Assembly: GCF_036178845.1 (NCBI RefSeq) | Contig: NZ_CP108070.1 | Coordinates: forward strand, 806,001-870,000 | Direction of reading: 5' to 3' | DNA from: Streptomyces sp. NBC_00271 | GTDB lineage: Bacteria > Actinomycetota > Actinomycetes > Streptomycetales > Streptomycetaceae | DNA length: 64,000 bases | Shown: piece after piece, positions 30,360 to 53,216 of the stretch | Numbering within the stretch: the stretch's first letter is position 1 | Layout: the number at the start of each line of letters is the position of its first letter | Program-made: the position numbers and the translations under genes | Notes under the pieces: model-generated | What the model was told of the DNA's origin: nothing | The model's database searches: none | What the model saw: only the letters and a program-made list of their open reading frames with translations

Positions 30360-31322
30360 TCAGGCCTTGCGGGCCCGGATCTCCTCGGTGAGACGGGGCA
30401 CGACCTCGAACAGGTCGCCGACCACGCCGTAGTCGGCCAGGTCGAAGATCGGTGCCTCGGCGTCCTTGTTGATCGCCACGATCGTCTTCGAGGTCTGCAT
30501 GCCGGCCCGGTGCTGGATCGCGCCCGAGATACCCGCCGCGACGTACAGCTGCGGCGACACGCTCTTGCCCGTCTGGCCGATCTGGTGCGCGTGCGGATAC
30601 CAGCCGGAGTCGACGGCCGCGCGGGACGCGCCCACCGCCGCGCCGAGCGAATCGGCCAGGGCTTCGATGATCCGGAAGTTCTCCGCGCCGTTGACACCGC
30701 GGCCACCGGCGACGACGGTCTCCGCCTCCGTCAGCTCCGGGCGTCCCGTCGACTCGCGCCGGGTCCGCGAGGTGATCCTGGTGCCCGTCGCCCGGTCCGC
30801 GAAGACCACTGCCAGCTCCTCGACCGTGCCGGCGGCCGGGGCGGCCTCCACCGGGGCCGAGTTGGGCTTGACGGTGATGACCGCGACGTCCCGGGTCACG
30901 CGCGAGCGGGTGGTGAAGGCCGCGGCGAACGCCGACTGCGTGGTGACCGGGCCGTCGGGGCCCGCCTCGACGTCGACGGCGTCGGTGACCAGGCCGGCGC
31001 CGACGCGCAGCGCCAGGCGGGCGGCGATCTCCTTGGACTCGGCCGAGGACGGCAGGAGGACCACGGCCGGGGAGACGGCGGCGCAGGCGGCCTGCAACGC
31101 GTCGGCCTTGGGGGCCACCAGGTAGTCGGAGTACTCGGGGGCGTCGTGCGCGAGGATCCTGACCGCGCCGTGGTCGCCCAGGATCTCGGCGGCGGCCTGC
31201 GCGCCGGCGCCGAGATGCACGGCGACCGGCTCGCCCAGGCGGCGGGCGAGTGTGAGCAGTTCGAGGGTGGGTTTGCGCACCGCTCCGTCGACGTGGTCGA
31301 CGTACACGAGGATGTGGGTCAT
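30360..31322 (-). CDS. etfA: Electron transfer flavoprotein alpha subunit
   Basis: This 320-residue EtfA/FixB protein carries the FAD domain in its C-terminal half: [14 protein letters not shown], then [25 protein letters not shown] (given here as parts of one continuous region) and [21 protein letters not shown], all conserved. EtfAB accepts electrons from acyl-CoA dehydrogenases and passes them to the quinone pool. The ATG at 31322 opens with the expected [11 protein letters not shown]. It is the last gene of the 3-hydroxyacyl-CoA dehydrogenase-etfB-etfA operon, 58 bp after etfB. An acyl-CoA dehydrogenase gene 10 kb away in the same island is the likely partner. Confidence 0.95.
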
Positions 31323-31380
31323 GGACGTGTCTCCTGCGGATGAAGAAGAAGGACGTGGACGGGTGGGCGTCGGCCCGGGC

Positions 31381-32166
31381 TCAGATGTACTTCCGGGCCG
31401 CCAGGAACTCCGCGAGCTGCTTGCCGCCCTCGCCCTCGTCCTGGACGATCGTGCCCGCGGTGCGGGCCGGGCGCTCGGCCACCGCCTCCACCGCGGTCCA
31501 GGCGCCCTTGAGTCCCACCTCGTCGGGGTCGATGCCGAGGTCCGACAGGTCCAGGGAGTCCACCGGCTTCTTCTTGGCCGCCATGATGCCCTTGAACGAC
31601 GGGTAACGGGCCTCACCGGACTGGTCGGTCACCGACACGACCGCCGGCAGGGACGCCTGAAGCCGCTCGGACGCCGCGTCGCTGTCCCGGCGGCCCGTGA
31701 TCTGACCGCCGGCCACCGAGACCTCGGACAGCAGGGTGGCCTGCGGGACGGCCAGGCGCTCGGCCAGCAGCGCGGGCAGGACCCCCATGGCGCCGTCCGT
31801 GGAGGCCATACCGCAGACGACGAGGTCGTAGCCGATGTGCTCGATGGCCTTGGCGAGCACGAGCGAGGTGCCCAGCACGTCCGTGCCGTGCAGGCCGTCG
31901 TCCTCCACGTGGACGGCGCGGTCGGCGCCCATGGACAGTGCCTTGCGCAGCGCCTCCCTGGCGTCCTCGGGACCCACCGTCAGTACGGTGATCTCCGCGT
32001 CGTCCGACTCGTCGGCGATCCGGAGGGCCTGCTCGACCGCGTACTCGTCGAGTTCCGAGAGAAGTCCGTCGACGTCTTCGCGGGCGACCGTCGAATCGTC
32101 GGCGAAGTGCCGGTCGCCTGTCGCGTCGGGCACGTATTTCACGCAGACGGTGATCCTCAGGGTCAT
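31381..32166 (-). CDS. etfB: Electron transfer flavoprotein beta subunit
   Basis: This 261-residue EtfB/FixA protein starts [19 protein letters not shown]. It contains the AMP-binding signature region [22 protein letters not shown] and the docking peptide segment near [26 protein letters not shown] precedes the ATG. Length and motifs are normal. It pairs with etfA downstream and is co-transcribed with a 3-hydroxyacyl-CoA dehydrogenase upstream. Streptomyces usually have a housekeeping etfBA pair elsewhere, so this is likely a dedicated copy. Confidence 0.95.
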
Positions 32167-32267
32167 GACTGTTCTTCCTTCGCTCGTGCGTTGTCGTGCG
32201 ATTCGTTCGTCGTGCCGGGGCGCTCGCCCCGGCGATGCGTTCCCGGAAGCGAGAGGGGGCGCGTGCC

Positions 32268-33809
32268 TCAGGCGTCGGCGACCGGCGGGACGGCGCCCGG
32301 TTCGGTGAGCGGCAGGCCGAGATGCGCGCGCTCGGTGACCCAGCGGGTCGGCCGGTAGCGGGGGTCACCGGTGCTGCGGTGGAGCCCTTCCTGCAGGGCG
32401 AGCAGGCGCCGGGCCCCGATCCGGTCGCCCCAGGCCAACGGACCGACCGGGTAGCCGAGTCCCGCCGTGACGGCGAGGTCGATGTCGCCGGGGGCCGCGA
32501 GGGAACGCTCCGCGACGGAGGCCGCCACCGAGATGATCGACGCCAGCACCCGCTGGGCGACCGAGCCCGCCGTGTCGCGCACGACGGACACCGGGACGGC
32601 CTCTGCACCGCCGGCCGCCCGTGCCAGCACCGCGCGCGCGTCGCGCACCGCGGTCCCGTCGGACGCCGGGGTCATGGCCAGCACCCGGCGACGGGCGGTG
32701 AGGGACAGGGGGTCGACGCCCAGGGTGCGCTCGGCCGGCAGGCCGCCCTCGGCGATCGCGGAGGCGACGGTCGTTCCCCAGACCGGGCACAGCACGAGAG
32801 CCTGCTCCGAGGGCGCGGACGCCTTTTCGAGGGCCGCCCCCGACTCGCTGAGCACCGTGCGCAGCGTGTCGCCGTCCCGGCCCTCGCCGGCGACCCACAC
32901 CGGCCGGCCCGGATCGCCGGTGACGGGTTGTTCCGGCAGGTCGGCGGGGGCCGGGATGCCGGGGCCGTACGCGTAGAAGCCGCGCCCGGTCTTGCGGCCG
33001 TGCAGGCCCGCCGCCACCCGGTTGGGAGCGAGGTAGGAGGGGCGCAGCCGGTCGGAGTGCCGGAAGCCCTGCCAGATGGAGTCGGTCACCGCGGCGGTCA
33101 CGTCCAGGCCGGTGAGGTCCATCAGCTCGAAGGGGCCCATGCGCAGTCCGAGTACGTCGCGGGCGATGCGGTCGATGCCCGTCGTGTCGCTGACGGACTC
33201 CTCCAGCAGGGCGAACGCCTCGGTGATCAGGCCGCGGCCGACGTGGTTGATCAGGAAGCCGGGGGTGTCCGAGGCGACTACCGCGGCGTGTCCGGTGGCC
33301 CGGACCAGTTCGACGAGGGTCCGGGGGATCTCGGGGCGGGTCAGCGCGCCCGGAACTACCTCGACGATCCTCATCAGCGGCACGGGATTGAAGAAGTGCA
33401 GGCCGCAGAGGCGGGACGGATCAAGGAGTCCCGACGCGATCTGTGTCACAGGCAGCGAGGACGTGTTGGTCGCGAAGACCGTGCCCGCGGGCAGGATGTC
33501 CTCCAGCTGCCGGAACAGCTCCGTCTTGGTGGCCAGGTCCTCGCGGACCGCCTCGATGACCAGCCCCACGTCGTCGCCCGGCGCGGCCGGCGAGTCCACC
33601 GGCAGCAGCCGTGCCGAAGCGGCTCCGGCGGCCTCTTCGGTCATCCGCTGCTTCTGGGCGGCGCGTTCGAGCATGTGCTGGACGAAGACGACGGCCTCGC
33701 CGACGGCCTCCTGCCGCACATCGGCGAGTTCGACGGTGTGGCCGGCGACCGCCGCCCACTGGGCGATGCCGCGGCCCATGGCGCCGGCGCCGACAATCCT
33801 GATGCGCAT
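32268..33809 (-). CDS. 3-hydroxyacyl-CoA dehydrogenase (PaaH-like, two C-terminal domains)
   Basis: This 513-residue enzyme oxidises 3-hydroxyacyl-CoA to 3-ketoacyl-CoA with NAD. The Rossmann motif GAGAMGRGIAQW is at residues 8-19. ATNTSSLPVTQIA and LCGLHFFNPVPLMRIVEVV, with the catalytic histidine, follow. A first C-terminal domain (DTPGFLINHVGRGLITEAF) is followed by a degenerate second copy, giving the PaaH-type length rather than the 280 residues of single-domain enzymes. GGAGG precedes the ATG. It is divergent from the LysR regulator and heads the etfBA operon. Confidence 0.92.
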   Translation of the reverse strand: MRIRIVGAGAMGRGIAQWAAVAGHTVELADVRQEAVGEAVVFVQHMLERAAQKQRMTEEAAGAASARLLPVDSPAAPGDDVGLVIEAVREDLATKTELFRQLEDILPAGTVFATNTSSLPVTQIASGLLDPSRLCGLHFFNPVPLMRIVEVVPGALTRPEIPRTLVELVRATGHAAVVASDTPGFLINHVGRGLITEAFALLEESVSDTTGIDRIARDVLGLRMGPFELMDLTGLDVTAAVTDSIWQGFRHSDRLRPSYLAPNRVAAGLHGRKTGRGFYAYGPGIPAPADLPEQPVTGDPGRPVWVAGEGRDGDTLRTVLSESGAALEKASAPSEQALVLCPVWGTTVASAIAEGGLPAERTLGVDPLSLTARRRVLAMTPASDGTAVRDARAVLARAAGGAEAVPVSVVRDTAGSVAQRVLASIISVAASVAERSLAAPGDIDLAVTAGLGYPVGPLAWGDRIGARRLLALQEGLHRSTGDPRYRPTRWVTERAHLGLPLTEPGAVPPVADA

Positions 33810-34193
33810 GTGGATCTCGCCTCCCTCTCGGTTCTCGGATTTCCGCTCCCGCTCCGGTGGTGCGGGAGCCGGATCCGTTCTGCTGACCCGGCTGCTTCGG
33901 TCCGCGGCCGCCGGCGGATCGCCGGCACTCCGTGCCTGCCGTGCCCGGGCCCCGTTGACACCCGGCGTATCGCGGCCCGGGTGCGGTGACCACCCACCGC
34001 CGACGCACCCCGCGGGGCCCTGTCGCCCTGACCTCCCGACTCTGGGGAGACCGAAGTCCGCACGAACGGCCGCCGTCCGAGGTGGACGGACGTGTCCGCC
34101 GGTGTGCCACGCGGGAACGCCCGCCCCCAGACGCCAGGCCGGAGCTGCGCGGACCGGTTCGGCGGACGGTCTTACGCTGCCAGCCGCAATCCA

Positions 34194-34246
34194 TTAATGT
34201 CCAATACTAAATGGCACACGCTTTAAGACGTTCATTCGATGAATGA
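34194..34246. promoter_or_regulatory. Candidate LysR binding region between the divergent operons
   Basis: The AT-rich core of the 475-bp divergent region (33810-34284) contains TTAATGTCCAATACTAA (34194-34210), which fits the T-N11-A pattern of LysR-family sites. It also contains TCATT-N5-AATGA (34232-34246). Both lie within 95 bp of the LysR start. The rest of the region shows no gene. Confidence 0.4.
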
Positions 34247-34284
34247 CCGGGATTCCTCCCGGAGTCGGAACAGTGGGAACCACC

Positions 34285-35187
34285 ATGGAACTGCGCCGCC
34301 TGGTCGCCTTCGTAGCCGTCGCCGAGGAACTGCACTTCGGCCGTGCCGCCAAACGGCTCCAGATGGCCCAGCCACCGCTGAGCCAGCAGATCCGGCAGTT
34401 GGAGAAGGAGCTGGGGGTCCAGCTCTTCGAGCGCAACACCCGCTCGGTCAGGCTCACCAGCGCCGGCCAGTCCTACCTGGAGCCGGTGCGTACCGTGCTC
34501 AAGGACCTCGACCTGGCCACCCGGGCCGCCAGGGCCGCCGGGCTGGGCCAGTACGGGCGCGTGACCGTGGGCTTCGCCGGCGCCTCCAGCCATGAGAGCC
34601 TGCCCCGGCTGACCCGGGCCGTCAGAGCCGTCCACCCCGGCATCGAGCTGGTCCTGAAGGGCCAGACCTACGCCAACGCGGCCCTGGCGGGCGTCGCGGA
34701 GGGCTCGCTGGACCTCGGTTTCGTCCGGCTCTCGGCAACTCCCCCGGGTGTGACACTGCGGGTCATCGGGGAGGAGGAGATGATCTGCGCGCTGCCCTCC
34801 TACCACCCCCTGGCCCAGCGCGATCGCATCCCGATCGCCGCCCTGGGCGAGGAGCCCTTCGTGAGTTTCCCCGCCAACGCCGGCTCCAGCCTGCGCGACG
34901 CCACGTTCCAGGTCTGCGACACGGCCGGGTTCACGCCGCGGGTGGTCCAGGAGGCTCCGGACTCCCACACCATCCTGGCGCTGGTGGCCGCCGGAGTCGG
35001 GGTGACGCTGACCCTGACGTCCTGCCTGCACGTCCAGCAGACCGGCCTGGTGTACCGCCCGCTGGCCGGGCCGCCCATCCGGCTCCAGGCGGCGCTGGCC
35101 TGGCGTACGGACAATCCCTCGGCCGCGCTGCACTCGGTCCTCACCGTGGCCGAGGAGGCGCTGCCGACCCCCACCCTGAGCACCTAG
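34285..35187 (+). CDS. LysR-family transcriptional regulator
   Basis: This 300-residue regulator has an N-terminal winged helix (MELRRLVAFVAVAEELHFGR, then RAAKRLQMAQPPLSQQIRQL) and a periplasmic-binding-like effector domain from about residue 90. The region is similar to BenM/CatM-like aromatic-responsive regulators, though the effector cannot be named. The ATG at 34285 was chosen over a frame opening at 34243 because it gives the canonical MELR start. It is divergent from the 3-hydroxyacyl-CoA dehydrogenase-etf operon and upstream of the thiolase and MaoC genes, which are likely targets. Confidence 0.9.
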   Translation: MELRRLVAFVAVAEELHFGRAAKRLQMAQPPLSQQIRQLEKELGVQLFERNTRSVRLTSAGQSYLEPVRTVLKDLDLATRAARAAGLGQYGRVTVGFAGASSHESLPRLTRAVRAVHPGIELVLKGQTYANAALAGVAEGSLDLGFVRLSATPPGVTLRVIGEEEMICALPSYHPLAQRDRIPIAALGEEPFVSFPANAGSSLRDATFQVCDTAGFTPRVVQEAPDSHTILALVAAGVGVTLTLTSCLHVQQTGLVYRPLAGPPIRLQAALAWRTDNPSAALHSVLTVAEEALPTPTLST

Positions 35188-35304
35188 ACGATTTCCGTCC
35201 GAGTCCGGCGTGAATCAGGTATTGGATCTTCTTGGTGCCGGAGTGCGAGGCTCGGTGGGAACGGTTCCGCCGTAGAGCTTCCCCCACCAGGGAAAGGCAG
35301 TTGC

Positions 35305-36528
35305 ATGTCCGAACAAGCCGATGTCGTCATCTGCGAGCCGCTGCGCACACCGATCGGGCGCTTCGGCGGCGCGCTCGCGGACCAGCGTCCGGCCGGTCTC
35401 GCGGCGCTCGTCATCGCCGAGATCGTCGGCCGCACCGGGATCGATCCCGAGCGGATCGACGAGGTGATCCTGGGCCACGCCTACCCGACCTCCGACGCCC
35501 CCGCGATCGGCCGGGTCGCCGCCCTCGACGCGGGGCTGCCCGACTCGGTCACCGGCGTCCAGGTCGACCGCCGTTGCGGATCGGGCCTCCAGGCCGTCCT
35601 CGACGCCGCCATGCAGATCCGCAGCGGCTTCAGCGATGTCGTCGTCGCGGGCGGGGTGGACGTCATGAGCGCGGCCCCCTTCTACACCCACGACGGCCGG
35701 TGGGGTATCAGGACGCCGAGTCTCGAACTCCACGACTCCCTGGCGCGTGGCCGGGCCACCGCCGGCGGCGTCAACCACCCCGTTCCCGGGGGCATGATCG
35801 AGACCGCGGAGAACCTCCGCCGCGCCTACTCCATCTCCCGCGAGGACCAGGACACCCTCGCGGTGCGCTCCCAGCAGCGCACCGCTGCCGCCATGGCGGC
35901 CGGGCTGTTCAAGGACGAGATCGTCCCCGTCACGGTGCGCACCCGCAAGGGCGAGGTCACCGTGGCGGAGGACGAACACCCCCGCCCCGGCACGACGGCG
36001 GAGCAACTGGCCGCACTCCGGCCGATCATGGGCAGGTCCGACCCGGAGGCGACCGTCACCGCGGGCAACGCCAGCGGTCAGAACGACGCGGCGGCCGCCT
36101 GCCTGGTGACCACCCGTGCCACGGCCGAGCGCCTGGGCCTGACCCCGCTGGTGCGGCTGGTGTCCTTCGCCCGCGCCGGGGTGCCCGCCGAGACCATGGG
36201 GATCGGCCCGGTGCCGGCCACCCGGAAAGCCCTGGACAGGGCCGGGCTCACGCTCACCGACATGGGCCTGATCGAGCTCAACGAGGCCTTCGCCGCCCAG
36301 GTACTGGCCTGCACACGGGTGCTGGGTCTGACCGACGCCGACCACGAGCGGATCAACGTCAACGGCTCCGGCATCTCCCTCGGCCACCCCGTCGGGGCGA
36401 CCGGCGCCCGGATCCTGGCCACCCTGGTGCGCGAGATGCACCGCAGGGGGACCCGCTACGGCCTGGAGACGATGTGCATCGGCGGAGGCCAGGGCCTGGC
36501 CGCGGTGTTCGAACGCATCACCGGCTGA
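35305..36528 (+). CDS. Acetyl-CoA acetyltransferase / 3-ketoacyl-CoA thiolase
   Basis: This 407-residue thiolase has all catalytic residues: Cys91 (RRCGSGLQAVLDA), His361 (GISLGHPVGATGARI) and Cys391 (MCIGGGQG). It cleaves 3-ketoacyl-CoA, releasing acetyl-CoA as the last step of a beta-oxidation round. AAAGGCAG precedes the ATG. Its length and N-terminus (VICEPLRTPIGRFGG) match PcaF/FadA-like degradative thiolases. It is followed 84 bp later by a MaoC hydratase. Confidence 0.93.
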   Translation: MSEQADVVICEPLRTPIGRFGGALADQRPAGLAALVIAEIVGRTGIDPERIDEVILGHAYPTSDAPAIGRVAALDAGLPDSVTGVQVDRRCGSGLQAVLDAAMQIRSGFSDVVVAGGVDVMSAAPFYTHDGRWGIRTPSLELHDSLARGRATAGGVNHPVPGGMIETAENLRRAYSISREDQDTLAVRSQQRTAAAMAAGLFKDEIVPVTVRTRKGEVTVAEDEHPRPGTTAEQLAALRPIMGRSDPEATVTAGNASGQNDAAAACLVTTRATAERLGLTPLVRLVSFARAGVPAETMGIGPVPATRKALDRAGLTLTDMGLIELNEAFAAQVLACTRVLGLTDADHERINVNGSGISLGHPVGATGARILATLVREMHRRGTRYGLETMCIGGGQGLAAVFERITG

Positions 36529-36612
36529 CGTCCCGCCGGACCGCAGGCACCGATCGGCCGATGACCGGCCGTCATCCAACCAGGAACTGAACCAAGGAAA
36601 TCGGAGTCCATC

Positions 36613-37071
36613 GTGACACTGACCGCCAACGGCATACCGGAGATCGCGAAGCTGGCCGGCCGCGATCTCGGACACTCCGAGTGGAGGGAAGTCACTCAGG
36701 AGCTCATCGACGCCTTCGCGGCGGTCTCCGGCGACGGCCAGTGGATCCACACCGACGTCGAGCGCGCGGCCGCGGGCCCGTTCGGGCGCACGATCGCGCA
36801 CGGCTACATGGTGCTCAGCTGGGGCATCCCCATGGTGGCGGAACTCCTCCAGGTCACCGGCGTGGGCATGGCCCTCAACTACGGTGTGAACAAGGTGCGT
36901 TTCCCCGCGCCCGTGCCGGTCGGCAGCAAGATCCGCCTGCACGCCGGGATCACCGAGGTGCGCGAGGTGAGCCGGGGCGGCATCCAGGTGCACCGCGCCT
37001 TCACCTTCGAACTCGAAGGATCCGACAAGCCCGCCTGCGTCGCGGAGTCCCTCACGCACTACTACCCGTAA
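36613..37071 (+). CDS. MaoC family (R)-type enoyl-CoA hydratase/dehydratase
   Basis: This 152-residue hot-dog-fold protein starts at GTG 36613 after GGAG. The hydratase-2 motif is present: SGDGQWIHTDVERAAAGPFG with catalytic Asp and His, followed by RTIAHGYMVLS. These proteins hydrate trans-2-enoyl-CoA. In this island a crotonase-type hydratase is also present, so the two may act on different intermediates. It is the last gene on the + strand before a terminator hairpin. Confidence 0.9.
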   Translation: MTLTANGIPEIAKLAGRDLGHSEWREVTQELIDAFAAVSGDGQWIHTDVERAAAGPFGRTIAHGYMVLSWGIPMVAELLQVTGVGMALNYGVNKVRFPAPVPVGSKIRLHAGITEVREVSRGGIQVHRAFTFELEGSDKPACVAESLTHYYP

Positions 37072-37097
37072 AGAGAGCCATCCCCGAAGAACAGCGG

Positions 37098-37138
37098 CCT
37101 TGGCGGCCGGGCACCCTCGATCTCTCCGGCCGCCAAGG
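37098..37138. terminator. Bidirectional hairpin terminator between MaoC and cofC
   Basis: A perfect 13-bp inverted repeat (CCTTGGCGGCCGG at 37098-37110, complement at 37126-37138) with a 15-nt loop separates the convergent genes and can serve both. Confidence 0.75.
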
Positions 37139-37144
37139 TCGTTC

Positions 37145-37861
37145 TCATGCCCGCGGCGGGTGACGTACGACGCCCGGCGACGCGGTACGGCCGGGGAGGC
37201 CGGGGAGGTACGAAGCGTCCACGAGGGACGGTACGGGCCGCAGACGGGCGAGGACGTCGGAGAGGTGGGTGTGTCGTGCCGGGGGTGGCACGAGGGCGAG
37301 GTGAGCGAGGTGGGCGAGGCAGTCGAGGTCGTAACGCAGCGCGGCGAGGCCGGGTCCGGTCAGTTCGACGGCGCCGGAACGGCGGTGGGCCTCGCGGGAG
37401 CCGATTCCGTAGACGGGACCGAGCGCGTGTCCGGGACGGGCGGTGAGGAGCGTGGTGCCCTCGTCGTCCGCGTCGGGGAGGAACGCCCGGTCGTGGGCCC
37501 CGGCCTCGGCCAGGGCCCGGCCGAGGAGCGCGGGTTCGATCAGCGGCAGGTCGGCGGGGAGCGCGGCGACACCGCACCCGGGGTGGCCGGCACGGGCGGC
37601 CCGTTCGCCCTGGTGCAGGGCCTCGTTGAGACCCGGGCCGGTCCCGAGGACATGTCCGACACCGAGACCGGCGACGGGTTCGAGGTCCTGGATCCGGTCG
37701 ACGACGACGATCACCGTGGCCACGCCAGGCGTGTGCTGCGCGGCGGCCACGGTGTCGCGGAACAGGGCGCTCGCGACCCGCTGCCGGTCGGGCGAGTCGA
37801 GTGCGAGGCGGCTCTTCGCCAGGCGGAGGTCCTTCTGCGGGACGACAACGGCCCAACGCAC
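37145..37861 (-). CDS. cofC: CofC/FbiD-type guanylyltransferase of F420 biosynthesis
   Basis: This 238-residue nucleotidyltransferase activates 2-phospholactate or, in many actinobacteria, phosphoenolpyruvate with GTP for transfer to the deazaflavin Fo. The nucleotide-binding N-terminus is VRWAVVVPQKDLRLAKSRLA, and VAALPADLPLIEP carries the conserved metal-binding Asp pair. The GTG at 37861 was selected because the protein starts at the family's first beta strand; the upstream frame is arginine-rich noise. The C-terminal tail of about 30 residues is longer than usual. It follows fbiC by 104 bp on the same strand. FbiA/FbiB are not in the window. Confidence 0.82.
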   Translation of the reverse strand: MRWAVVVPQKDLRLAKSRLALDSPDRQRVASALFRDTVAAAQHTPGVATVIVVVDRIQDLEPVAGLGVGHVLGTGPGLNEALHQGERAARAGHPGCGVAALPADLPLIEPALLGRALAEAGAHDRAFLPDADDEGTTLLTARPGHALGPVYGIGSREAHRRSGAVELTGPGLAALRYDLDCLAHLAHLALVPPPARHTHLSDVLARLRPVPSLVDASYLPGLPGRTASPGVVRHPPRA

Positions 37862-37965
37862 CTCACCGCGCGCACGGTTGTCGCGGTGTCCGCCCCTGTC
37901 GGCGGGATGGTGGGCCCGGCCGTGCGTACCCCCGTCCGCGCGGCCGCGGCCGGGCCGGCCGGTGG

Positions 37966-40536: not shown

Positions 40537-40568
40537 CGCGGTCTCCTCACATGGACGCTCAGGCATGG

Positions 40569-44630: not shown

Positions 44631-44675
44631 GGTTCGTGCTCCTCAAGGAAGTGCCCGCGACCGGCGGTGCGGGTT

Positions 44676-44707: not shown

Positions 44708-44719
44708 GGTCTGATGGGG

Positions 44720-45526: not shown

Positions 45527-45553
45527 GTCTCCTACTTTCCGGTCAGGGAAACC

Positions 45554-46024
45554 TCAGTGCTTGGCTGAGTCCCCTACCAACTCGACAAAGTGGAACAGCG
45601 TACCGTCGGGGTCCGCCGCGAAGAGGATCTTCCATCCGTTCACCCCGTCGGGAGCCATCACGGTCTGCGGGGTGTGCAGGAACTTGACGCCCGCGGCGCT
45701 CAGGCGGTCGTACTCGCCCTGGATGTCGTCCGTGAGGATCGAGAAGCGGCACAGGCCCGGGTTGACGGTGTCGGCGATGGCCCGTTCGCGGGTCGCCGGC
45801 ACGTCGTGCCACTCGATGATGTCGAGCAGCGCCTCGTCGGGCGAGTTGTTCAGGCGCATGTGCGCGAAGCGCAGCCTGCTGCCCTGGTCGATCATGAACG
45901 CCCGCGCGAGGTTGGCGTCGTCGACCTCCTTGTCCTGCACGACCTCGAAGCCGACGAGTCGGTAGAACTCGATGGTGCGGTCCATGTCGGTGACGTTGAG
46001 ACCGACATGCCAGAATCTACGCAT
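45554..46024 (-). CDS. VOC family (glyoxalase/bleomycin-resistance/dioxygenase) protein
   Basis: This 156-residue vicinal-oxygen-chelate protein has a start typical of lyases or dioxygenases of this fold, MRRFWHVGLNVTDMDRTIEF. The metal-ligand candidates are His6 in the first beta strand and the terminal Glu in LFHFVELVGD. It is twice the length of one beta-alpha-beta-beta-beta module, as expected for a complete two-module fold. GAGAGGGA precedes the ATG. It lies between the acyl-CoA synthetase and IclR genes. Possible reactions include isomerisation, epimerisation or ring cleavage; none can be fixed from sequence. Confidence 0.86.
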   Translation of the reverse strand: MRRFWHVGLNVTDMDRTIEFYRLVGFEVVQDKEVDDANLARAFMIDQGSRLRFAHMRLNNSPDEALLDIIEWHDVPATRERAIADTVNPGLCRFSILTDDIQGEYDRLSAAGVKFLHTPQTVMAPDGVNGWKILFAADPDGTLFHFVELVGDSAKH

Positions 46025-46121
46025 AGGTGGTCCCTCTCGTGATGTGTGTCTGGGTGTGACATCCGGGCACGGACGCCGCCGGGACGCCGTCTCGGGCGGT
46101 GGTGCCTCGGAAGGGGCCCGG

Positions 46122-47744
46122 TCAGTGCGGGGCCGGAGCGAGTTCGCGACGCAGGAGCTTCCCGGTCTCCGTCCTCGGCAGGGACGAGACCACTTCGAAC
46201 TCCCGGGGTCTGGCGTGCGGCCCGACCGTGGCGGCCACCAGGTCGCACAGCTCCGCGCGGAGCGCCTCCCCGACCTCACCGCCGGTCTCGCCGCCGGTGA
46301 ACCGCAGGAAGACCTTCACCCGCTGGCCGATGCTGTCGTCCGGGATGCCGACCGCGGCGGCCTCGGCCACCAGCGGGTGGTTCAGCAGGGCGTCCTCGAT
46401 CTCCGAGGGGCCGATCCGGTAGCCGCGGCTCTTGATGACGTCGTCCGCGCGGCCCAGGTACTCCAGGCGCCGTCCATGAGCACGCCTGGCCAGGTCGTTC
46501 GTCCGGTGCCACTCGCCGGCCGGGGGTACCGGGCCCTCGGTCCTCGCATCCCAGATCCCCAGCAGCGCGACCGGGTCGGGAAGCCGCAGGGCGATCTCGC
46601 CGACCTCACCGTGGGCGACCTCCCGGCCGTCCTCGCCGAGCAGGGCGATGGTGTGACCCGGATACGGGGCGCCCATCGTGTCGTCGTCGACGGAGCCCAG
46701 CGCCGCCGAGTCACCGATGAGAGCGTTGGCCTCGGTCTGGCCGTACGCCTTGTTCACGGCCTGCGACAGGTGCAGCCGGGACCACGCCATCTCCGAGCGC
46801 CCCGCCGGTTCGCCGCCGGTGACGACGGCACGCAGCCTGCGCTCCGGCGCCCGGCCGTTCGCCTGCAACAGGCGCAGGACGGAAGGCGGCAGGAAGGCGG
46901 TCGTGACGCCGCACCGCGCGAACAGCTCCAGCGTGGCGTTCGCATCGAAACGCGTCTGCCGCTGCGCGACGACCGGGACGCCGAACGACCACGGGACGAG
47001 GAGCCCCAGCATGAGGCCGCCGATCCACCCCCAGTCGGCCGTCCCGTAGTAGACGTCCCCGGGCTGGAACAGCTCGAAGGCGTAGTCCACTCCGGCGTGG
47101 CCGAGCAGCACCTGGTGGCCGTGCAGGATGCCCTTGGGCGTACCGCTGGTGCCCGAGGTGTACATCAGCAGCGCGGGGGTCGTCGGACCGGCCGGCCAGG
47201 GGGAGTCGGAGTGGTCGTCGACCTTACGGCCGGCGATCCCCTTCTCCTCGGTCCCGTCGACCGTCAGCACGGCGAGGCCCTCGACGTCGCAGCCCGTCGA
47301 CCGCAGCCGGTCAAGACCCAGCCCGTCGGTGACGAGCACCTTCGCCCCCGAGTCGCTCAGGCGGTGGGCGACCGAGCCGCCGGCCATGAGACGCGGGATC
47401 GGAAGGAGCACCGCCCCGGCGGCCAGCACTCCGAAGACGGCCTCCGCCGCGGCCGGCGAGGGGTCGAGGTAGAGCGCGACCCGGTCGCCCGGAGCGACTC
47501 CTTGCGCCCGCAGTACATCGCCGACCCGCAGCGCGGCCTCCTGGACCTCGCCGAACGTGATCTCGCCGACTTCCTGCGGTCCGGCCGTGAGTACGGCCAC
47601 CGCGTCCGGATCCTGCGCGAAGAGCGCGTCCTGGGCGATCGAGTAGTCCGCGGCCGGCGACCACCGGGAGACACCCCGGAGGTCCCGCAGGCGGGCGACG
47701 ACCGGGACGTCGGCGCCCTGCGGCGCTAGTCCAGACGTGCCCAT
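46122..47744 (-). CDS. AMP-dependent acyl-CoA synthetase (MACS/benzoate-CoA-ligase-like)
   Basis: This 540-residue ANL-family enzyme activates a carboxylic acid to its CoA thioester. Motifs in order: P-loop LLMYTSGTSGTPKGILHGH, the substrate-pocket segment YYGTADWGWIGG, the adenine motif KAYGQTEAN, HRTNDLARR in place of the usual YxTGD, the hinge SRGYRIGPSEIEDA and the catalytic lysine in SLPRTETGKLLRREL. The pocket and hinge resemble medium-chain or benzoate-CoA ligases. GGAGAAGAG precedes the ATG, which lies 19 bp inside the end of the aldehyde dehydrogenase gene, so both are tightly coupled. The exact acid is unknown. Confidence 0.9.
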   Translation of the reverse strand: MGTSGLAPQGADVPVVARLRDLRGVSRWSPAADYSIAQDALFAQDPDAVAVLTAGPQEVGEITFGEVQEAALRVGDVLRAQGVAPGDRVALYLDPSPAAAEAVFGVLAAGAVLLPIPRLMAGGSVAHRLSDSGAKVLVTDGLGLDRLRSTGCDVEGLAVLTVDGTEEKGIAGRKVDDHSDSPWPAGPTTPALLMYTSGTSGTPKGILHGHQVLLGHAGVDYAFELFQPGDVYYGTADWGWIGGLMLGLLVPWSFGVPVVAQRQTRFDANATLELFARCGVTTAFLPPSVLRLLQANGRAPERRLRAVVTGGEPAGRSEMAWSRLHLSQAVNKAYGQTEANALIGDSAALGSVDDDTMGAPYPGHTIALLGEDGREVAHGEVGEIALRLPDPVALLGIWDARTEGPVPPAGEWHRTNDLARRAHGRRLEYLGRADDVIKSRGYRIGPSEIEDALLNHPLVAEAAAVGIPDDSIGQRVKVFLRFTGGETGGEVGEALRAELCDLVAATVGPHARPREFEVVSSLPRTETGKLLRRELAPAPH

Positions 47745-49174
47745 ACGCTCTTCTCCTTCGTGAAGCTCTCGATCGCGCTGCGCCCGAGATCACTGCCGTA
47801 GCCGCTGTGGCGGAACCCGCGGTACGGCGAGGCCGGGTTGAGCACGCCCCAGCTGTTGATCCACACGTTCCCGGCGTCCAGCGTCCCCGCGAAGCGCAGG
47901 GCCCGGCCGACGTCGCGGGTGAACACGCCGGCCGCGAGGCCGTAGATCGTGTCGTTCGCCAGCCCGATCGCCTGCTCCTCGCCCTCGAACGGCAGTACGC
48001 CGAGGACGGGGCCGAAGATCTCCTCGCGAGCGATCCGCATGTCCGGGGCCACGTCCGCGAACAGCGTCGGCTGGTAGAAGAAGCCCGGACCGTCTGCCGG
48101 AGCCTCGGTGCTGCCCGCCAGCAGACGGGCACCCTCCTCGGCACCCGACACCACGTAGGAGTGAACCGAGTCCCGCTGTGCCGCGTTGACCAGCGGGCCG
48201 ATCTCCGTCTCGGGGTCGAGCGGGTCTCCGACCCTGGCCGCGTCGACCCGCGCCCTGACCAGCTCCACGACCTCGTCGTAGATCGGGCGCTCGACCAGGA
48301 GCCGGCTGGGCGCGGTGCAGGTCTCGCCCTGGTTGCCGTACATGGCCGTGAAGACCACGTCGGCGACCGCCTTCGGGGACGCGTCCGCGAAGGCGACCAG
48401 TGCCGACTTGCCGCCCAGCTCCAGGGAGGTGGTGATCAGCCGGTCCGCCGCCATCCGGCCGATCTCCTGGCCGATCTCGGTCGAACCGGTGAAGGTGATC
48501 TTGCCGACGCCCGGGTGCTGGACCAGCGCGTTGCCCGCCACCGAGCCGCGGCCCGGCAGGACGTTCACGACACCGGGGGGGATGCCGGCCTCCAGGGCCA
48601 GCTCACCCAGCGCCACCGGCACGAGGGGCGCGAGCTGCGCCGGCTTCAGGACGATGGAGTTGCCCATGGCCAGCGCCGGCGCGATCTTCCAGATCGACTG
48701 CACGGCGGGGAAGTTCCACGGGGTGATCGCACCGACCACACCGATCGGCTCGCGCACCGTGTAGTTCAGGAAGCGGCCGGGGGCGGGGGTCGTCCGTCCC
48801 TCGATCTTGGTCACCAGGCCGGCGAAGTACTCGACGGTCTCGACCATGACCGGCAGGTCGATCTTCGCGGACTCGCGGATCGGCTTTCCCATGTCGCGGG
48901 TCTGCAGCTCGGCGAGCCGCTCCTTGTTCGCTTCGATGAGCGCCGCGTAGCGCAGCATCAGGCGGGTGCGCTGCGAGGGGCGCATCCGCTGCCAGGCCTT
49001 GGCGCCGGCTCGCGCGGCCTCGACGGCGCGGGCGACGTCGTCCACGGTCGCCTCGGCGACCTTCGCTATGACGCTGCCGTCGGCGGGGTTGACGGTCTCG
49101 AACGTGGCTCCGTTCGAGGCGTCCGTGAGCTGGTCGCCGAGGACCAGCGGAACACTGGAGGTCAGTGCACGCAT
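47726..49174 (-). CDS. NAD(P)-dependent aldehyde dehydrogenase
   Basis: This 482-residue aldehyde dehydrogenase has the cofactor segment ITPWNFPAVQSIWKIAPALA, the catalytic Glu in SLELGGKSALVAFADA and the nucleophilic cysteine in YGNQGETCTAPSRLL. The final signature HSGYGSDLGRSAIESFTKEK is of the BADH/PatD-like group. It is co-translated with the acyl-CoA synthetase, suggesting a route aldehyde to acid to acyl-CoA in which an alcohol- or ring-derived aldehyde is oxidised and then activated. The substrate is not known. Confidence 0.92.
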   Translation of the reverse strand: MRALTSSVPLVLGDQLTDASNGATFETVNPADGSVIAKVAEATVDDVARAVEAARAGAKAWQRMRPSQRTRLMLRYAALIEANKERLAELQTRDMGKPIRESAKIDLPVMVETVEYFAGLVTKIEGRTTPAPGRFLNYTVREPIGVVGAITPWNFPAVQSIWKIAPALAMGNSIVLKPAQLAPLVPVALGELALEAGIPPGVVNVLPGRGSVAGNALVQHPGVGKITFTGSTEIGQEIGRMAADRLITTSLELGGKSALVAFADASPKAVADVVFTAMYGNQGETCTAPSRLLVERPIYDEVVELVRARVDAARVGDPLDPETEIGPLVNAAQRDSVHSYVVSGAEEGARLLAGSTEAPADGPGFFYQPTLFADVAPDMRIAREEIFGPVLGVLPFEGEEQAIGLANDTIYGLAAGVFTRDVGRALRFAGTLDAGNVWINSWGVLNPASPYRGFRHSGYGSDLGRSAIESFTKEKSVWARLD

Positions 49175-49198
49175 GATCGGCTCTCTTTCGTTCGGGCC

Positions 49199-50086
49199 TC
49201 AGGGGAGGCGGTGCGCGGTCGGCAGGACCGCCTCGGCGAGGGCCTGCAGCTCCTCCATCGCGGAGTCGAGCGTGGCGTGCTCGAACGAGGTGTCGCAGAT
49301 GAAGTGCGTGACGCCGAGGTCGCCGTACGCCTCGATCGTCTCGGCGTTGTAGGGCGCCTTGCGCAGCGGGCGCGCGGTGAGCGTGATCTCGCTCATGTCA
49401 CGGCCGGCCTCCGCCACGTACGACTTCAGCGTGGCGAGGTAGCCGGCGTAGTCCTCCGGGCCCACGGCCAGCGGGTGCCAGCCGTCACCGATCGCGGCGA
49501 TACGGCGCAGCGACGCCTCGCTGTAGCCGGCGAACCAGACCGGGATCGTGCCCCGCACGGGCTTGGGGAACATCATGAAGTCGTGCAGGTTGTAGAAGTC
49601 GCCGTCCCAGGAGACCTCGTCCTCGGTCCACATCTGGCGCATGGCCTTGACCATCTCGGTCACCCGGCGGCCGCGGTCCTTGAAGGGCGCGCCCAGCGCC
49701 TCGAACTGCTCCTTCATCCAGCCGACGCCGATGGCGACGGACAGCCGGCCCTTGGACAGGACGTCGATGCTCACGAGCGTCTTCGACGTCTGCACCAGCG
49801 GGCGCCAGGGCAGGATCAGGCAGGACGTGCCCAGCTCGACGGTCTCCGTCGCGGCCGCGGCCCAGGTCAGCGCGGTGAGGCAGTCCAGGTAGGGGGTTTC
49901 GGGCGCCCAGAGGAACTTGCCGTCGGCGGTGTACGGGTAGGCCGTCTCCACCTTCGTGGGCAGGGCCACGTGGTCAGTCATCCACAGCGAGTCGAAGCCG
50001 ATCTTCTCCGCGTAGCGGGAGACCTCGCTGATCGCGTCCGGTCCGGCCCAGGGACCGGCGCCGGGGATCCTGATACCAACCTTCAT
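49199..50086 (-). CDS. LLM-class F420-dependent oxidoreductase (second copy)
   Basis: This 295-residue luciferase-like barrel opens MKVGIRIPGAGPWAGPDAIS and contains FDSLWMTDHVALP, GTSCLILPWRPLVQTSKTLVS and AIGVGWMKEQFEALGA. This is the TIGR03619/F420-dependent subgroup pattern rather than FMN monooxygenases of the alkanesulfonate type. AGGAG precedes the ATG. It is second in the operon after the CoA transferase. With the other LLM gene it gives the island two candidate F420H2-dependent hydride transferases, as in nitrophenol degraders. It is only distantly related to the other copy, so the two likely act on different intermediates. Confidence 0.87.
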   Translation of the reverse strand: MKVGIRIPGAGPWAGPDAISEVSRYAEKIGFDSLWMTDHVALPTKVETAYPYTADGKFLWAPETPYLDCLTALTWAAAATETVELGTSCLILPWRPLVQTSKTLVSIDVLSKGRLSVAIGVGWMKEQFEALGAPFKDRGRRVTEMVKAMRQMWTEDEVSWDGDFYNLHDFMMFPKPVRGTIPVWFAGYSEASLRRIAAIGDGWHPLAVGPEDYAGYLATLKSYVAEAGRDMSEITLTARPLRKAPYNAETIEAYGDLGVTHFICDTSFEHATLDSAMEELQALAEAVLPTAHRLP

Positions 50087-50114
50087 GTGATGCTCCTGTC
50101 AGGACGTTGTGTGT

Positions 50115-51311
50115 TCAGCGGACGACGCGCGCGGCCAGCAGCCGTGCGATGTCTTGGTCGTTGTGTCCGAGCTCCTGGAGAAGCTCGGCGGTGTGCTCGC
50201 CCAGGGCGGTCGGCGGACGCTCCACACGGCCCGGAGTGTCCGACAGCTTGATCGGCAGGCCCGGTACCCGGACCTCGCCGAGTGCCTCGCTCTCCAGGCC
50301 GACGACCATCTCGAGCGCGCGGATCTGGGGGTGATCCACGGCCTCGTCATACGCGAGGACCGGGGCGCAGATGATGTTCTGGTCGGTGAGCAGGGTGACG
50401 ATGTCGTCCCGGTCGCGCTCGGCGAACCAGGGAGCGAGCACCACGTCGAGTTCCTCGCGGTGGGCCAGCCGGCTCGCCGCGTTCGTGAACCGCTCGTCGT
50501 CGAGCAGGTGCTCGGCGCCGGCCGCCTTCACGAACCGCTCGAAGTGCCGGTCGTTGAAGGCGACGATGTGGACGGCCCCGCCGTCGCGTGTCGCGTACGC
50601 GTTGTACGGCGCGTAGAAGTTGCTCGCGTTGCCGACGCGCGGTGCCACGTAGTCGGCCAGCATGTACTGGCCCAGCCACGGTGACTGAAGGTGGAACAGC
50701 GAGGCCACCAGCGACACCGAGCCGTTCTGGCCGGCTCCGGTCTTCTGCCTGGCGAAGAGTGAGACCAGGGCCGCGATGGCGACAAGGTATCCGGCCGAGC
50801 TGTCGGCGACCGGCGGGCCGGCCTTGATGCCGCGGCCGTCGGGGTCCCCGGTGCCCTGGATCATGCCGGTGAGGGCCTGGGCGACGGGATCCAGCGCGGG
50901 CCGGCCGGCCGACGGGCCGCTGTCACCGTAGCCGCTCACGTTCAGGCAGATCAGGTGGGGGTGGCGCTCGCGGAGCTCCTCGGCGGTCAGGCCGAACTTG
51001 GCACGCACCGTGGGCAGCATGTTCTCGATCAGCACGTCGGCGCCGGCGCACAGCTCGTGGAAGAGTTCCCGGCCCTCCTCCGTGCGCAGATCGAGTGCGA
51101 TCGCCCGCTTGTTCCGGTTGACCCCGGCGTAGACACCGCTCATACCGTCCCGGCCGGGGCCGAACGTACGGGACTCGTCCCCTGCGATGGGCTCCACCTT
51201 GACCACGTCGGCACCGAAGTCAGCCAGGATCGACGCGCCCAGCGGGCCCGCAACCATCGTTGCGGCGTCGATCACCCGCGTTCCTGCCAGAGCCCGCACC
51301 TGCTGAGTCAT
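50115..51311 (-). CDS. Family III CoA transferase (CaiB/BaiF type)
   Basis: This 398-residue formyl-CoA-transferase-fold enzyme moves CoA between carboxylic acids through an Asp-bound anhydride. The start is RALAGTRVIDAATMVAGPLG, and the catalytic Asp is expected in the segment KAGPPVADSSAGYLVAIAAL. Further signatures are VYAGVNRNKRAIALDLRTEEG and the C-terminal GEHTAELLQELGHNDQDI. The ATG at 51311 was chosen over an extended frame. It heads the main minus-strand operon behind a near-consensus promoter. With the acyl-CoA synthetase gene it gives two ways to form CoA esters in the island. Confidence 0.9.
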   Translation of the reverse strand: MTQQVRALAGTRVIDAATMVAGPLGASILADFGADVVKVEPIAGDESRTFGPGRDGMSGVYAGVNRNKRAIALDLRTEEGRELFHELCAGADVLIENMLPTVRAKFGLTAEELRERHPHLICLNVSGYGDSGPSAGRPALDPVAQALTGMIQGTGDPDGRGIKAGPPVADSSAGYLVAIAALVSLFARQKTGAGQNGSVSLVASLFHLQSPWLGQYMLADYVAPRVGNASNFYAPYNAYATRDGGAVHIVAFNDRHFERFVKAAGAEHLLDDERFTNAASRLAHREELDVVLAPWFAERDRDDIVTLLTDQNIICAPVLAYDEAVDHPQIRALEMVVGLESEALGEVRVPGLPIKLSDTPGRVERPPTALGEHTAELLQELGHNDQDIARLLAARVVR

Positions 51312-51323: not shown

Positions 51324-51390
51324 GTGTTCACTATCTCGAACTCGCGCCAGCATTTGGAACGACCATAGGTAGGGTGTTCACCGGCGTCAA
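51324..51390 (-). promoter_or_regulatory. Promoter and operator of the main F420 island operon
   Basis: On the minus strand, TTGACG (51390-51385), a 17-bp spacer and TATGGT (51367-51362) make a near-consensus promoter 50-80 bp upstream of the CoA-transferase start. The octamer GTGTTCAC (plus strand) occurs at 51374-51381 inside the spacer and again at 51324-51331 just past the expected start site, exactly 50 bp apart. A repressor bound to both could block initiation; the IclR protein is the natural candidate. Confidence 0.6.
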
Positions 51391-51994
51391 GACTCGCCTG
51401 GGGACTTCCTGAGAAGGCCCTTTCGTCCCGGGGCCCTGGCGCCGGGGCGCCGACGACCGGACCGAAGGGCCGGCGCGCAGGCATGACACGTCGCCAAATC
51501 GCTTCACCTGACGGCAACTTGGAGTCGAACTGATGGCGCATCACCGGAGAGTGGCGAGACCCCGGCCGAGCCCGGAGGAGCCGCGAAGAGACCTCGGCCA
51601 ACGGGAGTCGATCAACGAATCCGCCGCTCACCGGGAGTTTCGCTCGCACGTCCAGCCGCAGCGGCGACGGCGTGTACAGTGCTGCCGATCACCCACACCC
51701 TCGGGAATTGGCCCGTTCTGCCGCCTTTGCTCTACCGTGCGGGAGATCCTTCGGCACCCCGAAGCTCCCGGGTTTCCAGCGCCCCGCACGGTCGGCGGCT
51801 GGCCCGCCGGGCCACCCACTTCCGCACAGCGGACATGTGGCGCATTCCACACCAGCAGCATCATTCCGGCCGGGTCGCGACAGGACGTCCTTGCAACGAC
51901 ACCCCCGTCCTGGACACACCTCCGCCGGGCCCGCCCGGATGCGACCGGCGGGCGGACCGCCTACAGGACACAGCCACCTTTGAGGAAGGCGTTC
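51391..51994. other. 600-bp divergent intergenic region
   Basis: This stretch lies between the main operon promoter and the divergent binding-protein-like gene. I see no supportable gene; open frames here are shadow-like and proline/arginine-rich. It presumably carries the promoter for the + strand pair. Confidence 0.5.
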
Positions 51995-52873
51995 ATGCAC
52001 ACGATCGATCTCGCCTACGTGGGGCGCGGTCCCCACGAGGAGCTAGTCACCTACATCGCGGACCAGCAGGACTTCTACGCCGACGCCGGTGTCCACGTCG
52101 CCCTGCGGGACGGCTCGATCTGGGATCCGGAGCGGCTGCGCCGCGGGGCCGTCATCGGCCTGGGCCGGACACTGCTGTCCCGGCTGGTCGGCGGCATCCC
52201 ATGGGTCGCGCTCAATGTGAACACCCAGCAGCCCCAGTTCTGGTTCCTCGCCCGGCCCGGCCTGGACTCGCTGGCCGACCTGGCCGGGAAGCGTCTGGCC
52301 GTGCATCCGCACCACACCGGGCCCGGCTGCTTCACCCGCATCATGCTGCGCCAGGCCGGACTGGACCCGGACCGCGATGTCGAGACCATCGTCCGTGCAC
52401 CCGGCGACTACGGCATGGACCTGCGCAGGCTTCGCGAGGGCACGATCGACGCCGCGGTGGTGGGCGACACCCTGGTGCCCGAAGCCGTGGCCGCCGAGAA
52501 CGGCTGGCGGGTGCTGGCCTTCGCCGGTGACCTCTTCCAGATCCCGACCGTCGGTGTGGCCGTCGACCCGACCTACACCGATCCGGAGGACCCCGCGGTC
52601 CAGGCCGTCGTGCTGGCCCACCGGCGCGCGCTACGGGTGATCCGGGACGAGCCCGACACCACGGTCAGGTATCTCCAGGCCTTCCTCAACGGACACACGG
52701 AAGAGGAAGTCCGGGCGCACTACGAGAGGTTCATCGCCCCGTCGTTCGGCATCGACGGTCAGACGGACCTCGCCACCGCCGAGACGGCCGTCAAAGCGGT
52801 CGCCGCCGAACTGGGCGTGCCCGCCACGTTCACCGCGGCCGATTTCTATCGCACCCGACCCACCACGGCTTAG
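51995..52873 (+). CDS. NMT1/THI5-like (ABC substrate-binding fold) protein without signal peptide
   Basis: This 292-residue type II periplasmic-binding fold protein reads HTIDLAYVGRGPHEELVTYI, then WFLARPGLDSLADLAGKRLA and GTIDAAVVGDTLVPEAVAAE. Such proteins normally serve taurine/sulfonate/pyrimidine-precursor ABC transporters, but this one has no signal peptide: AAGG is 6 bp before the ATG and the fold begins at residue 4. No permease or ATPase gene is near. It could be a cytoplasmic enzyme, since dihydroxyphthalate decarboxylase-like and THI5-like proteins share this fold, or an intracellular sensor. It forms a + strand pair with the muconolactone-isomerase-like gene. Confidence 0.75.
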   Translation: MHTIDLAYVGRGPHEELVTYIADQQDFYADAGVHVALRDGSIWDPERLRRGAVIGLGRTLLSRLVGGIPWVALNVNTQQPQFWFLARPGLDSLADLAGKRLAVHPHHTGPGCFTRIMLRQAGLDPDRDVETIVRAPGDYGMDLRRLREGTIDAAVVGDTLVPEAVAAENGWRVLAFAGDLFQIPTVGVAVDPTYTDPEDPAVQAVVLAHRRALRVIRDEPDTTVRYLQAFLNGHTEEEVRAHYERFIAPSFGIDGQTDLATAETAVKAVAAELGVPATFTAADFYRTRPTTA

Positions 52874-52913
52874 GCCGCGGTGTCTTTTCGCAGCATCAGA
52901 GAAAGGCTGGCTT

Positions 52914-53216
52914 GTGAAAGAGTTTTTGATCGAGGTCACCACCAACATTCCCGACGGAACCGAGGCGGCCGAAGTCGACCGCCGTCGCGCTGCGGAGGCC
53001 GCCCGGGCCGTCGAGTTGATCGCCTCCGGCCACCTGGTCCGGATCTGGCGTCCGGTGGGTGAGATGCGCAGCATCGCCCTGTGGCGGGCCAACGACGTGG
53101 CCGAGTTGCGTGACAGGATCCTGAGCACCTTGCCGCTGTGGTCCTGGATGACGTCCGTCGTCACCCCTCTTGAGTCGCACCCGAGCGACCCCGGCAAGGC
53201 GGACACCACCGTCTGA
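52914..53216 (+). CDS. Muconolactone delta-isomerase family protein
   Basis: This 100-residue protein begins at GTG 52914 after AAAGG and matches the muconolactone isomerase (CatC) family: KEFLIEVTTNIPDGTEAAEV, RAVELIASGHLVRIWRP and the C-terminal LPLWSWMTSVVTPLESHP. CatC shifts the double bond in muconolactone in the beta-ketoadipate pathway. No catA or catB is nearby, so here it may act on another lactone or enone, or belong to the many uncharacterised relatives. It follows the binding-protein-like gene by 40 bp and is the last gene of the island. Confidence 0.82.
   Translation: MKEFLIEVTTNIPDGTEAAEVDRRRAAEAARAVELIASGHLVRIWRPVGEMRSIALWRANDVAELRDRILSTLPLWSWMTSVVTPLESHPSDPGKADTTV

Follow-up and report, generated by a model that had tools for sequence, protein, structure and literature searches.

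A candidate npd-type operon with its own F420 cofactor genes in a Streptomyces genome

Gene content and conservation of the locus

We analyzed a 64,000-nucleotide stretch of Streptomyces sp. NBC_00271 (bases 806001–870000 of contig C1, in a genome of 12.28 Mb in three contigs), which we refer to as the window. Genes were identified by gene calling and assigned to families by Pfam and NCBIfam profile searches with cut-offs; Rfam and tRNA scans gave no match. The central feature is a run of 13 consecutive minus-strand genes at 37145–51311, with gaps of –19 to 142 bases (computed with the first gene starting at 51275), that we interpret below as an npd-type operon for the F420H2-dependent breakdown of polynitrophenols.

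The run opens with a CoA-transferase of family III, CoAT3 (50115–51311; PF02515, 388 bits), whose best NCBIfam model, succinate-glutarate CoA-transferase, scores 236 bits, below its cut-off of 750. We shifted its start from 51275 to the ATG at 51311, and the start lies at a similar position, judged by eye, in the other loci described below. Next come LLM2 (49199–50086), an F420-dependent reductase of the TIGR03619 type (234 bits, cut-off 166.9) and candidate second hydride transferase, putatively HTI/NpdC; an aldehyde dehydrogenase (47726–49174; PF00171, 560 bits); an AMP-forming acyl-CoA ligase (46122–47744; PF00501 and PF13193); and a VOC/glyoxalase-fold protein (45554–46024; PF00903, 50.5 bits), collinear in eight loci and a candidate ring-opening hydrolase. 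They are followed by an IclR-family regulator (44720–45526; PF09339 and PF01614), at the NpdR position; the NADPH:F420 oxidoreductase NpdG (43962–44630; TIGR01915, 211 bits, cut-off 149.8), found at the same position in all eight loci; and a NIPSNAP-like small protein (43642–43965; PF07978, 34.6 bits, cut-off 22.3), a candidate tautomerase. By position, the VOC protein would correspond to NpdF and the NIPSNAP protein to NpdH. The remaining genes encode LLM1 (42450–43499), which identity to named proteins and clade position mark as the ortholog of hydride transferase II (NpdI); a crotonase-fold protein without the first catalytic Glu (41800–42453), by residue comparison a candidate nitrite lyase; an acyl-CoA dehydrogenase (40569–41723; PF00441, PF02770 and PF02771); FbiC (37966–40536; NF006687, 1449 bits, cut-off 1018), a predicted operon-specific FO (7,8-didemethyl-8-hydroxy-5-deazariboflavin) synthase; and CofC/FbiD (37145–37969; TIGR03552, 128.7 bits, cut-off 105). 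The fbiC and cofC genes overlap by 4 bases. Beyond cofC, at 30360–37071 and outside the conserved operon, lies a beta-oxidation module with genes for EtfA, EtfB and a 3-hydroxyacyl-CoA dehydrogenase on the minus strand and a LysR regulator, a thiolase and a MaoC-type hydratase on the plus strand.

LLM1 searches yielded eight genomes in all, each of which was used for comparison: the window's own, Streptomyces sp. M41, G899, G706, Actinomadura sp. DC4, and three Rhodococcus-like genomes (G1260, G1274 and G1298; genus inferred). All eight loci were thus picked through their LLM1 match, and they represent about five lineages rather than independent samples. Flanks of about 20 kb on either side were fetched where the contig allowed; G1260 (a 16.9-kb contig) and the FbiC side of DC4 end at contig ends. 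The genes for CoAT3, LLM2, the aldehyde dehydrogenase, the ligase, the VOC protein, NpdG, the NIPSNAP protein, LLM1, the crotonase, the acyl-CoA dehydrogenase and FbiC are collinear in 8/8 loci. The IclR gene is also present in all eight: in six it lies between the VOC and NpdG genes, whereas M41 and G899 have it upstream, outside the operon. CofC follows FbiC in all seven loci where this can be assessed, the DC4 contig stopping after FbiC. The window's gene order is that of the three Rhodococcus-like loci. Such a tight 13-gene run on one strand, with the same core in seven other genomes, argues that the gene set is more than a chance assembly.

The operon is rare among relatives. At E 1e-40, the window's genome was the sole one of 199 relatives with an LLM1 match; at E 1e-80, matches were found in 1/396 genomes of a phylum sample (again the window's own), 3/394 genomes of its family (own included) and 3/351 genomes of a second family, all in one genus, the samples overlapping partly. 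A scan of a contig collection gave at least two LLM1 loci above 50% identity, in Streptomyces sp. M41 and Actinomadura sp. DC4; G706, G899 and the Rhodococcus-like genomes were missing among the matches listed though found in another collection, so absence there carries little weight. Carriage on plasmids or viruses was considered and rejected: LLM1 had no match in the plasmid collection at E 1e-20 and was not among 161 pattern matches in viral contigs.

Upstream of CoAT3, all eight loci carry a promoter-like arrangement (TTGACN, a 17-base spacer, TAnnnT) followed by a palindrome, GTTCNNNATWRTGAAC. In the window this operator-like site lies at 51326–51341 on the minus strand, downstream of the promoter-like site and directly before the CoAT3 start, and we presume that it resembles a PcaU/PobR-type IclR operator. 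The pattern was derived from the same eight loci, so its fit to them is no independent test; with one mismatch allowed, 0.02 matches to the operator pattern were expected in the window and two were observed. The second site, at 9234–9249, matches perfectly; it precedes genes for an HTH-domain protein and a beta-eliminating lyase and shows no evident connection to the operon. A sigma-70 scan of 30000–49900 found no promoter-like site; the promoter-operator, found by comparison of the loci, falls outside that range.

Hydride transferases and the likely substrate class

Compared by protein searches with genes of known dinitrophenol and picrate degraders, LLM1 is 78% identical to ‘Hydride transferase II’ of Nocardioides sp. 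JS1661, 75% to the ‘F420-dependent picric acid reductase’ of R. opacus and 72% to the ‘Hydride transferase’ of N. simplex. In a 28-row tree it falls inside a 16-row clade that holds all three of these proteins (support of 100 in the Shimodaira–Hasegawa-like approximate likelihood ratio test, SH-aLRT), and it groups with the Nocardioides proteins to the exclusion of R. opacus (11-row group, SH-aLRT 95). This tree and the FbiC tree described below were built as quick trees, with SH-aLRT support only and without bootstrap. Judged from its sequence, LLM1 is an ortholog of the named picrate/dinitrophenol hydride transferases. LLM2 is 80% identical to a ‘Putative F420-dependent dehydrogenase’ of R. 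opacus and 86% identical to a Rhodococcus protein. The operon crotonase is 61% identical to its R. opacus homolog, 54% to the ‘Enoyl-CoA hydratase’ of JS1661 and 98% to an S. mirabilis protein; this last value and the grouping of the housekeeping FbiC (below) most likely place the source strain close to S. mirabilis. Because identity to the R. opacus picric acid reductase reaches 97.4% for the LLM1 of G1260, 96.3% for that of G1298 and 92.5% for that of G1274, we let these three loci represent the Rhodococcus npd operon; the window thus resembles the operon of R. opacus/erythropolis in both LLM proteins, the crotonase and gene order.

Our preferred reading, to which we assign a probability of roughly 85%, is that 37145–51311 is an npd-type operon that has spread horizontally and serves to degrade polynitrophenols with F420H2 (picrate, 2,4-dinitrophenol or natural compounds close to them), equipped with its own FO synthase and CofC and placed beside a Streptomyces beta-oxidation module. 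Growth of the host on nitrophenols may be inferred from it. The preliminary description of this DNA had called the substrate unknown. LLM1 orthology and the shared gene order of the Rhodococcus-like loci leave the substrate class no longer open, and we rejected a wholly unknown pathway because LLM1 is orthologous to named hydride transferases. The same description had remarked on the lack of an obvious dioxygenase; none is expected for the npd pathway, in which the ring is opened hydrolytically.

Active-site residues of two operon enzymes were compared as well. In 10 crotonases (those of the eight loci, JS1661 and R. opacus), the first catalytic Glu position holds Ala in eight and Gly in two, and the second Glu is kept in 10/10; the closest solved relative, 5zai, carries the first Glu. 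On the roles that we presume for these two residues, the operon crotonase is probably not an ordinary hydratase, and the pattern would suit nitrite elimination from a beta-nitroacyl-CoA better than hydration. Both of the ‘hydratases’ listed earlier, the crotonase and MaoC, are present, but the crotonase lacks this Glu. The acyl-CoA dehydrogenase has Ala at the usual catalytic Glu and retains a Glu in the helix motif VLER in 8/8 loci. We rejected the idea that it is inactive, since it retains the helix Glu and the reference protein of RHA1 shows a similar combination, with Gly in place of the usual Glu and the helix Glu preserved.

Several observations weigh against our interpretation. The loci are partly redundant: LLM1 is 98.6% identical between M41 and G899 and 94–97% identical among the three Rhodococcus-like loci, which leaves about five lineages. 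The identity of the crotonase to the JS1661 and R. opacus homologs is only 54–61%. Reference crotonases also vary, with the first Glu present in RHA1, neither Glu present in P. ureafaciens and Gln at the first position in the solved EchA6; departures at this position are common in the superfamily, which weakens the crotonase argument. The NpdF, NpdH and HTI assignments are putative, being based on gene position. By tblastn, the window's thiolase, 3-hydroxyacyl-CoA dehydrogenase and EtfAB are unmatched near M41, G899, G706, G1274 and G1298 and on the short G1260 contig; genes of the lower pathway may thus lie elsewhere. Finally, LLM1 is 70–83% identical between genera (a difference of 17–30%), and the substrates for which growth has been published are synthetic, which leaves room for a different natural one.

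This last point leads to an alternative in which a natural nitroaromatic or another electron-poor ring from soil organisms is the main target and nitrophenol use is incidental. The operon spans at least four genera with deep divergence, yet is rare (3/394 genomes of its own family), much as might be expected of a niche trait that predates synthetic nitrophenols. However, proteins named from picrate and dinitrophenol degraders bracket the window LLM1 in the tree, and we know of no natural substrate for such an operon. We regard this alternative as possible but rather unlikely.

F420 cofactor genes within the operon

FbiC is found in 8/8 operon loci, with both CX3CX2C motifs intact in all of them. 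The window's genome, M41 and DC4 each encode two full FbiC proteins, a housekeeping copy scoring 1522–1526 bits and an operon copy scoring 1427–1452 bits; the window's genome also has a second CofC. In the phylum sample, where at most two candidates were scored per genome, FbiC occurs in 101/396 genomes (E 1e-150), and two full-length copies occur only in the window's genome. G509 has two partial pieces, and G642 has one near-full copy plus a piece that begins at the end of a contig and might represent a second copy. Within this sample, identity to the operon FbiC of the window reaches at most 68%, versus 73–84% for the copies of the other operons. In a 41-row tree the eight operon proteins form one clade (SH-aLRT 100) that requires a single label change. 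The housekeeping proteins of these three genomes (the window's, M41 and DC4) each group with proteins of related genomes, that of the window's genome with those of M41 and of genomes of the same genus. The tree gives no settled nearest neighbor for the operon clade. By these comparisons, FbiC is an integral, conserved and monophyletic part of the operon, distinct from the housekeeping proteins. Cofactor synthesis, earlier taken to set this locus apart from known npd clusters, therefore does not distinguish it, as all eight loci carry FbiC.

In two of the three Rhodococcus-like loci the run continues past CofC with genes for an MFS transporter, CofD, FbiB and a malic enzyme (L155:6158–11102 in G1274, where CofD scores 411 bits against TIGR01819 and FbiB 735 bits against PRK13294; L156 in G1298). 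A complete FbiC-CofC-CofD-FbiB run is thus found in both, and the contig of the third, G1260, includes the MFS gene and breaks off within CofD. The malic enzyme may supply NADPH for NpdG. The Rhodococcus-like CofD and FbiB have no match in the window, which does not itself hold a complete F420 pathway and, unlike these loci, passes from CofC to the beta-oxidation module. A single CofD is encoded in each of the window's genome (elsewhere than in the window), M41, G899, G706 and DC4. A second CofD lies elsewhere in G1274 and G1298, and G1260 has two fragments. Comparison of the operon CofD with the housekeeping one gives 94.4% identity for G1274 and 97.5% for G1298, so the Rhodococcus-like CofD part is either a recent copy of host genes or has been kept alike by exchange. 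In contrast to this addition, the operon FbiC clade is old.

Could fbiC and cofC be mere passengers, with F420 supplied wholly by housekeeping genes? The host does have its own FbiC, CofC and CofD. However, FbiC is retained in 8/8 loci with its radical-SAM motifs intact and is monophyletic with the operon, fbiC and cofC overlap, and CofD and FbiB were added to the run in Rhodococcus-like loci. We consider the passenger explanation improbable. We lean, by a small degree, toward a history in which the npd operon acquired an FO synthase and CofC in a single event that preceded its dispersal among actinobacterial families. Rhodococcus-like lineages would afterwards have extended it with copies of their own CofD and FbiB and with a malic enzyme; this would have given a portable pathway with an inducible, nearly self-sufficient source of F420H2. 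About the first 37 residues of the window's CofC (37145–37969) lie outside local alignments with relatives; translation may therefore begin further downstream, although the called start overlaps the fbiC stop.

F420 genes (fbiC with cofC or cofD) also occur on plasmids near LLM, nitroreductase or NpdG-like genes, at L107:14815–18031 (pRHL3 of R. jostii RHA1), L109:8863–13252 (pCZY of P. ureafaciens) and L113:7182–10959 (R. opacus VOC-14). The pRHL3 stretch shares the overlapping fbiC-cofC pair with the window and also encodes an LLM protein together with a flavin reductase and a deazaflavin-dependent oxidoreductase. It differs in that its FbiC, like those of pCZY and VOC-14, lies outside the operon clade and, as noted for the plasmid collection as a whole, in having no LLM1 relative. 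What appears new here is that FbiC belongs to the npd-type operon, in 8/8 loci, and that in Rhodococcus-like loci the whole F420 pathway lies inside a catabolic operon. The portions of the open literature covered by our search (including PMC8498797, PMC5352752, PMC10649934 and PMC13101518) describe no fbiC within an npd operon, although most subscription papers fall outside it and such a description may be in print.

Neighboring genes, proposed route and significance

The gene types listed in the preliminary description were all found between 30360 and 53216 by gene calls, Pfam and NCBIfam; its list omits an NMT1-like gene. Its claim of a single island, which it suggested checking by synteny of the whole block, stood in part: 37145–51311 is conserved as a unit, its core recurring in 8/8 loci, but 30360–37071 lies beside the operon only in the window. 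In the seven other loci, no ETF, 3-hydroxyacyl-CoA dehydrogenase or MaoC gene was found beside the operon (tblastn, E 1e-10, within the fetched stretches, with G1260 and one side of DC4 ended by contig ends). Twenty-five of 150 relatives, the window's genome included, match part of the module DNA at E 1e-100. The order 3-hydroxyacyl-CoA dehydrogenase-LysR-thiolase-MaoC recurs away from the operon in 3/3 fetched Streptomyces loci, at 72–84% protein identity; at one of them (L167) the order is interrupted by extra genes, two encoding CoA-transferase domains and one a shikimate-type transporter. The same genome encodes a second EtfAB, which shares 81% DNA identity with that of the module. Since the module was not found beside the operon in the seven other loci, two of them cut by contig ends, and recurs away from it in Streptomyces, the block consists of two units of separate history, and we rejected one ancient 23-kb island.

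The window thiolase best fits PRK06205 (670 bits, cut-off 551) and scores 394 bits against pcaF, below the cut-off of 597; the 3-hydroxyacyl-CoA dehydrogenase fits PRK08268 (518 bits, cut-off 508) and scores 362 bits against PaaH, below 669. They thus share superfamilies with the PcaF and PaaH of the beta-ketoadipate and phenylacetate lower pathways but fit other models. The DC4 operon adjoins another LysR-thiolase pair, with only 36 and 41% identity to the proteins of the window. Its neighbors include a pcaF-like thiolase (434 bits, below the cut-off of 597) and CoA-transferase genes of the pcaI and pcaJ families (above their cut-offs), an independent pointer to a 3-oxoadipyl-CoA end. The two lower-pathway sets differ, and both suit conversion of a C6 dicarboxyl-CoA to acetyl-CoA and succinyl-CoA.

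These results also bear on an alicyclic acid or terpenoid as the target, with the LLM proteins reducing an enone. The preliminary description had proposed F420H2-dependent reductive attack on an electron-poor ring or alicyclic compound, followed by beta-oxidation. For an electron-poor ring, this scheme remains the best-supported reading, and the beta-oxidation and CoA-activation genes that would serve an alicyclic substrate are present. However, LLM1 is orthologous to nitrophenol hydride transferases, and the operon and the beta-oxidation half do not move together; we hold an alicyclic or terpenoid target to be very improbable.

On the other side of the operon, 51995–53216 is conserved with it in Streptomycetaceae loci. 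This plus-strand segment encodes an NMT1-like protein (51995–52873; PF13379 and PF09084; no signal peptide by eye), 80–82% identical in 3/3 other Streptomycetaceae loci, and a muconolactone-isomerase-like protein (52914–53216; PF02426, 102.5 bits; TIGR03221, 53.4 bits, below its cut-off of 130.6), 76% identical in the same 3/3 loci. G1274 has an NMT1-like gene, 28% identical, about 4 kb from its operon (L154, 7341–8165 of the fetched 40 kb) and close to an operator-like site with four mismatches; it possibly belongs to the operon's regulon. The region is flanked by IS110-type transposase genes at 25969–27183 and 53775–54980 and by an integrase-core gene (rve, HTH_21) at 55657–56574. A composite transposon between the two IS110-type genes was rejected, as no repeat of at least 20 bases (14-base seed) joins them.

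Under the polynitrophenol reading, we propose the following route. IclR would repress a single promoter, through the palindrome that separates it from the start codon, as long as substrate is lacking. By their families, FbiC would then make FO, and CofC would produce the activated phospho-intermediate; F420 would be completed by the one CofD/FbiA of the host, encoded elsewhere in its genome, and by the host's ligase, and NpdG would move hydride from NADPH onto F420. LLM1 and then LLM2 would, by orthology, donate hydrides to the ring to give Meisenheimer-type complexes, and the NIPSNAP and VOC proteins, on their presumed positions, may take part in tautomerization, release of nitrite and hydrolytic cleavage of the ring, yielding a nitro-C6 acid. 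The npd pathway includes dinitrocyclohexanone and dinitrohexanoate steps. The aldehyde dehydrogenase and the CoA ligase or transferase could yield a nitroadipyl-CoA-like ester, from which a crotonase with the second Glu alone could expel nitrite by alpha-deprotonation. The acyl-CoA dehydrogenase with ETF, MaoC, the 3-hydroxyacyl-CoA dehydrogenase and the thiolase may then take the C6 dicarboxyl-CoA to acetyl-CoA and succinyl-CoA.

A 2021 review of F420, as far as its coverage of this enzyme extends, lists the hydride transferase for Rhodococcus, Nocardia and Nocardioides, not Streptomyces (PMC8498797). Altogether, our analysis assigns a likely substrate class to an F420 island that had looked like an orphan, and it makes Streptomyces and Actinomadura probable further carriers of the picrate/dinitrophenol pathway. 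The conserved operon FbiC allows a direct test of whether a catabolic pathway carries and induces its own rare cofactor, which may be useful for transferring F420-dependent remediation enzymes into other hosts.

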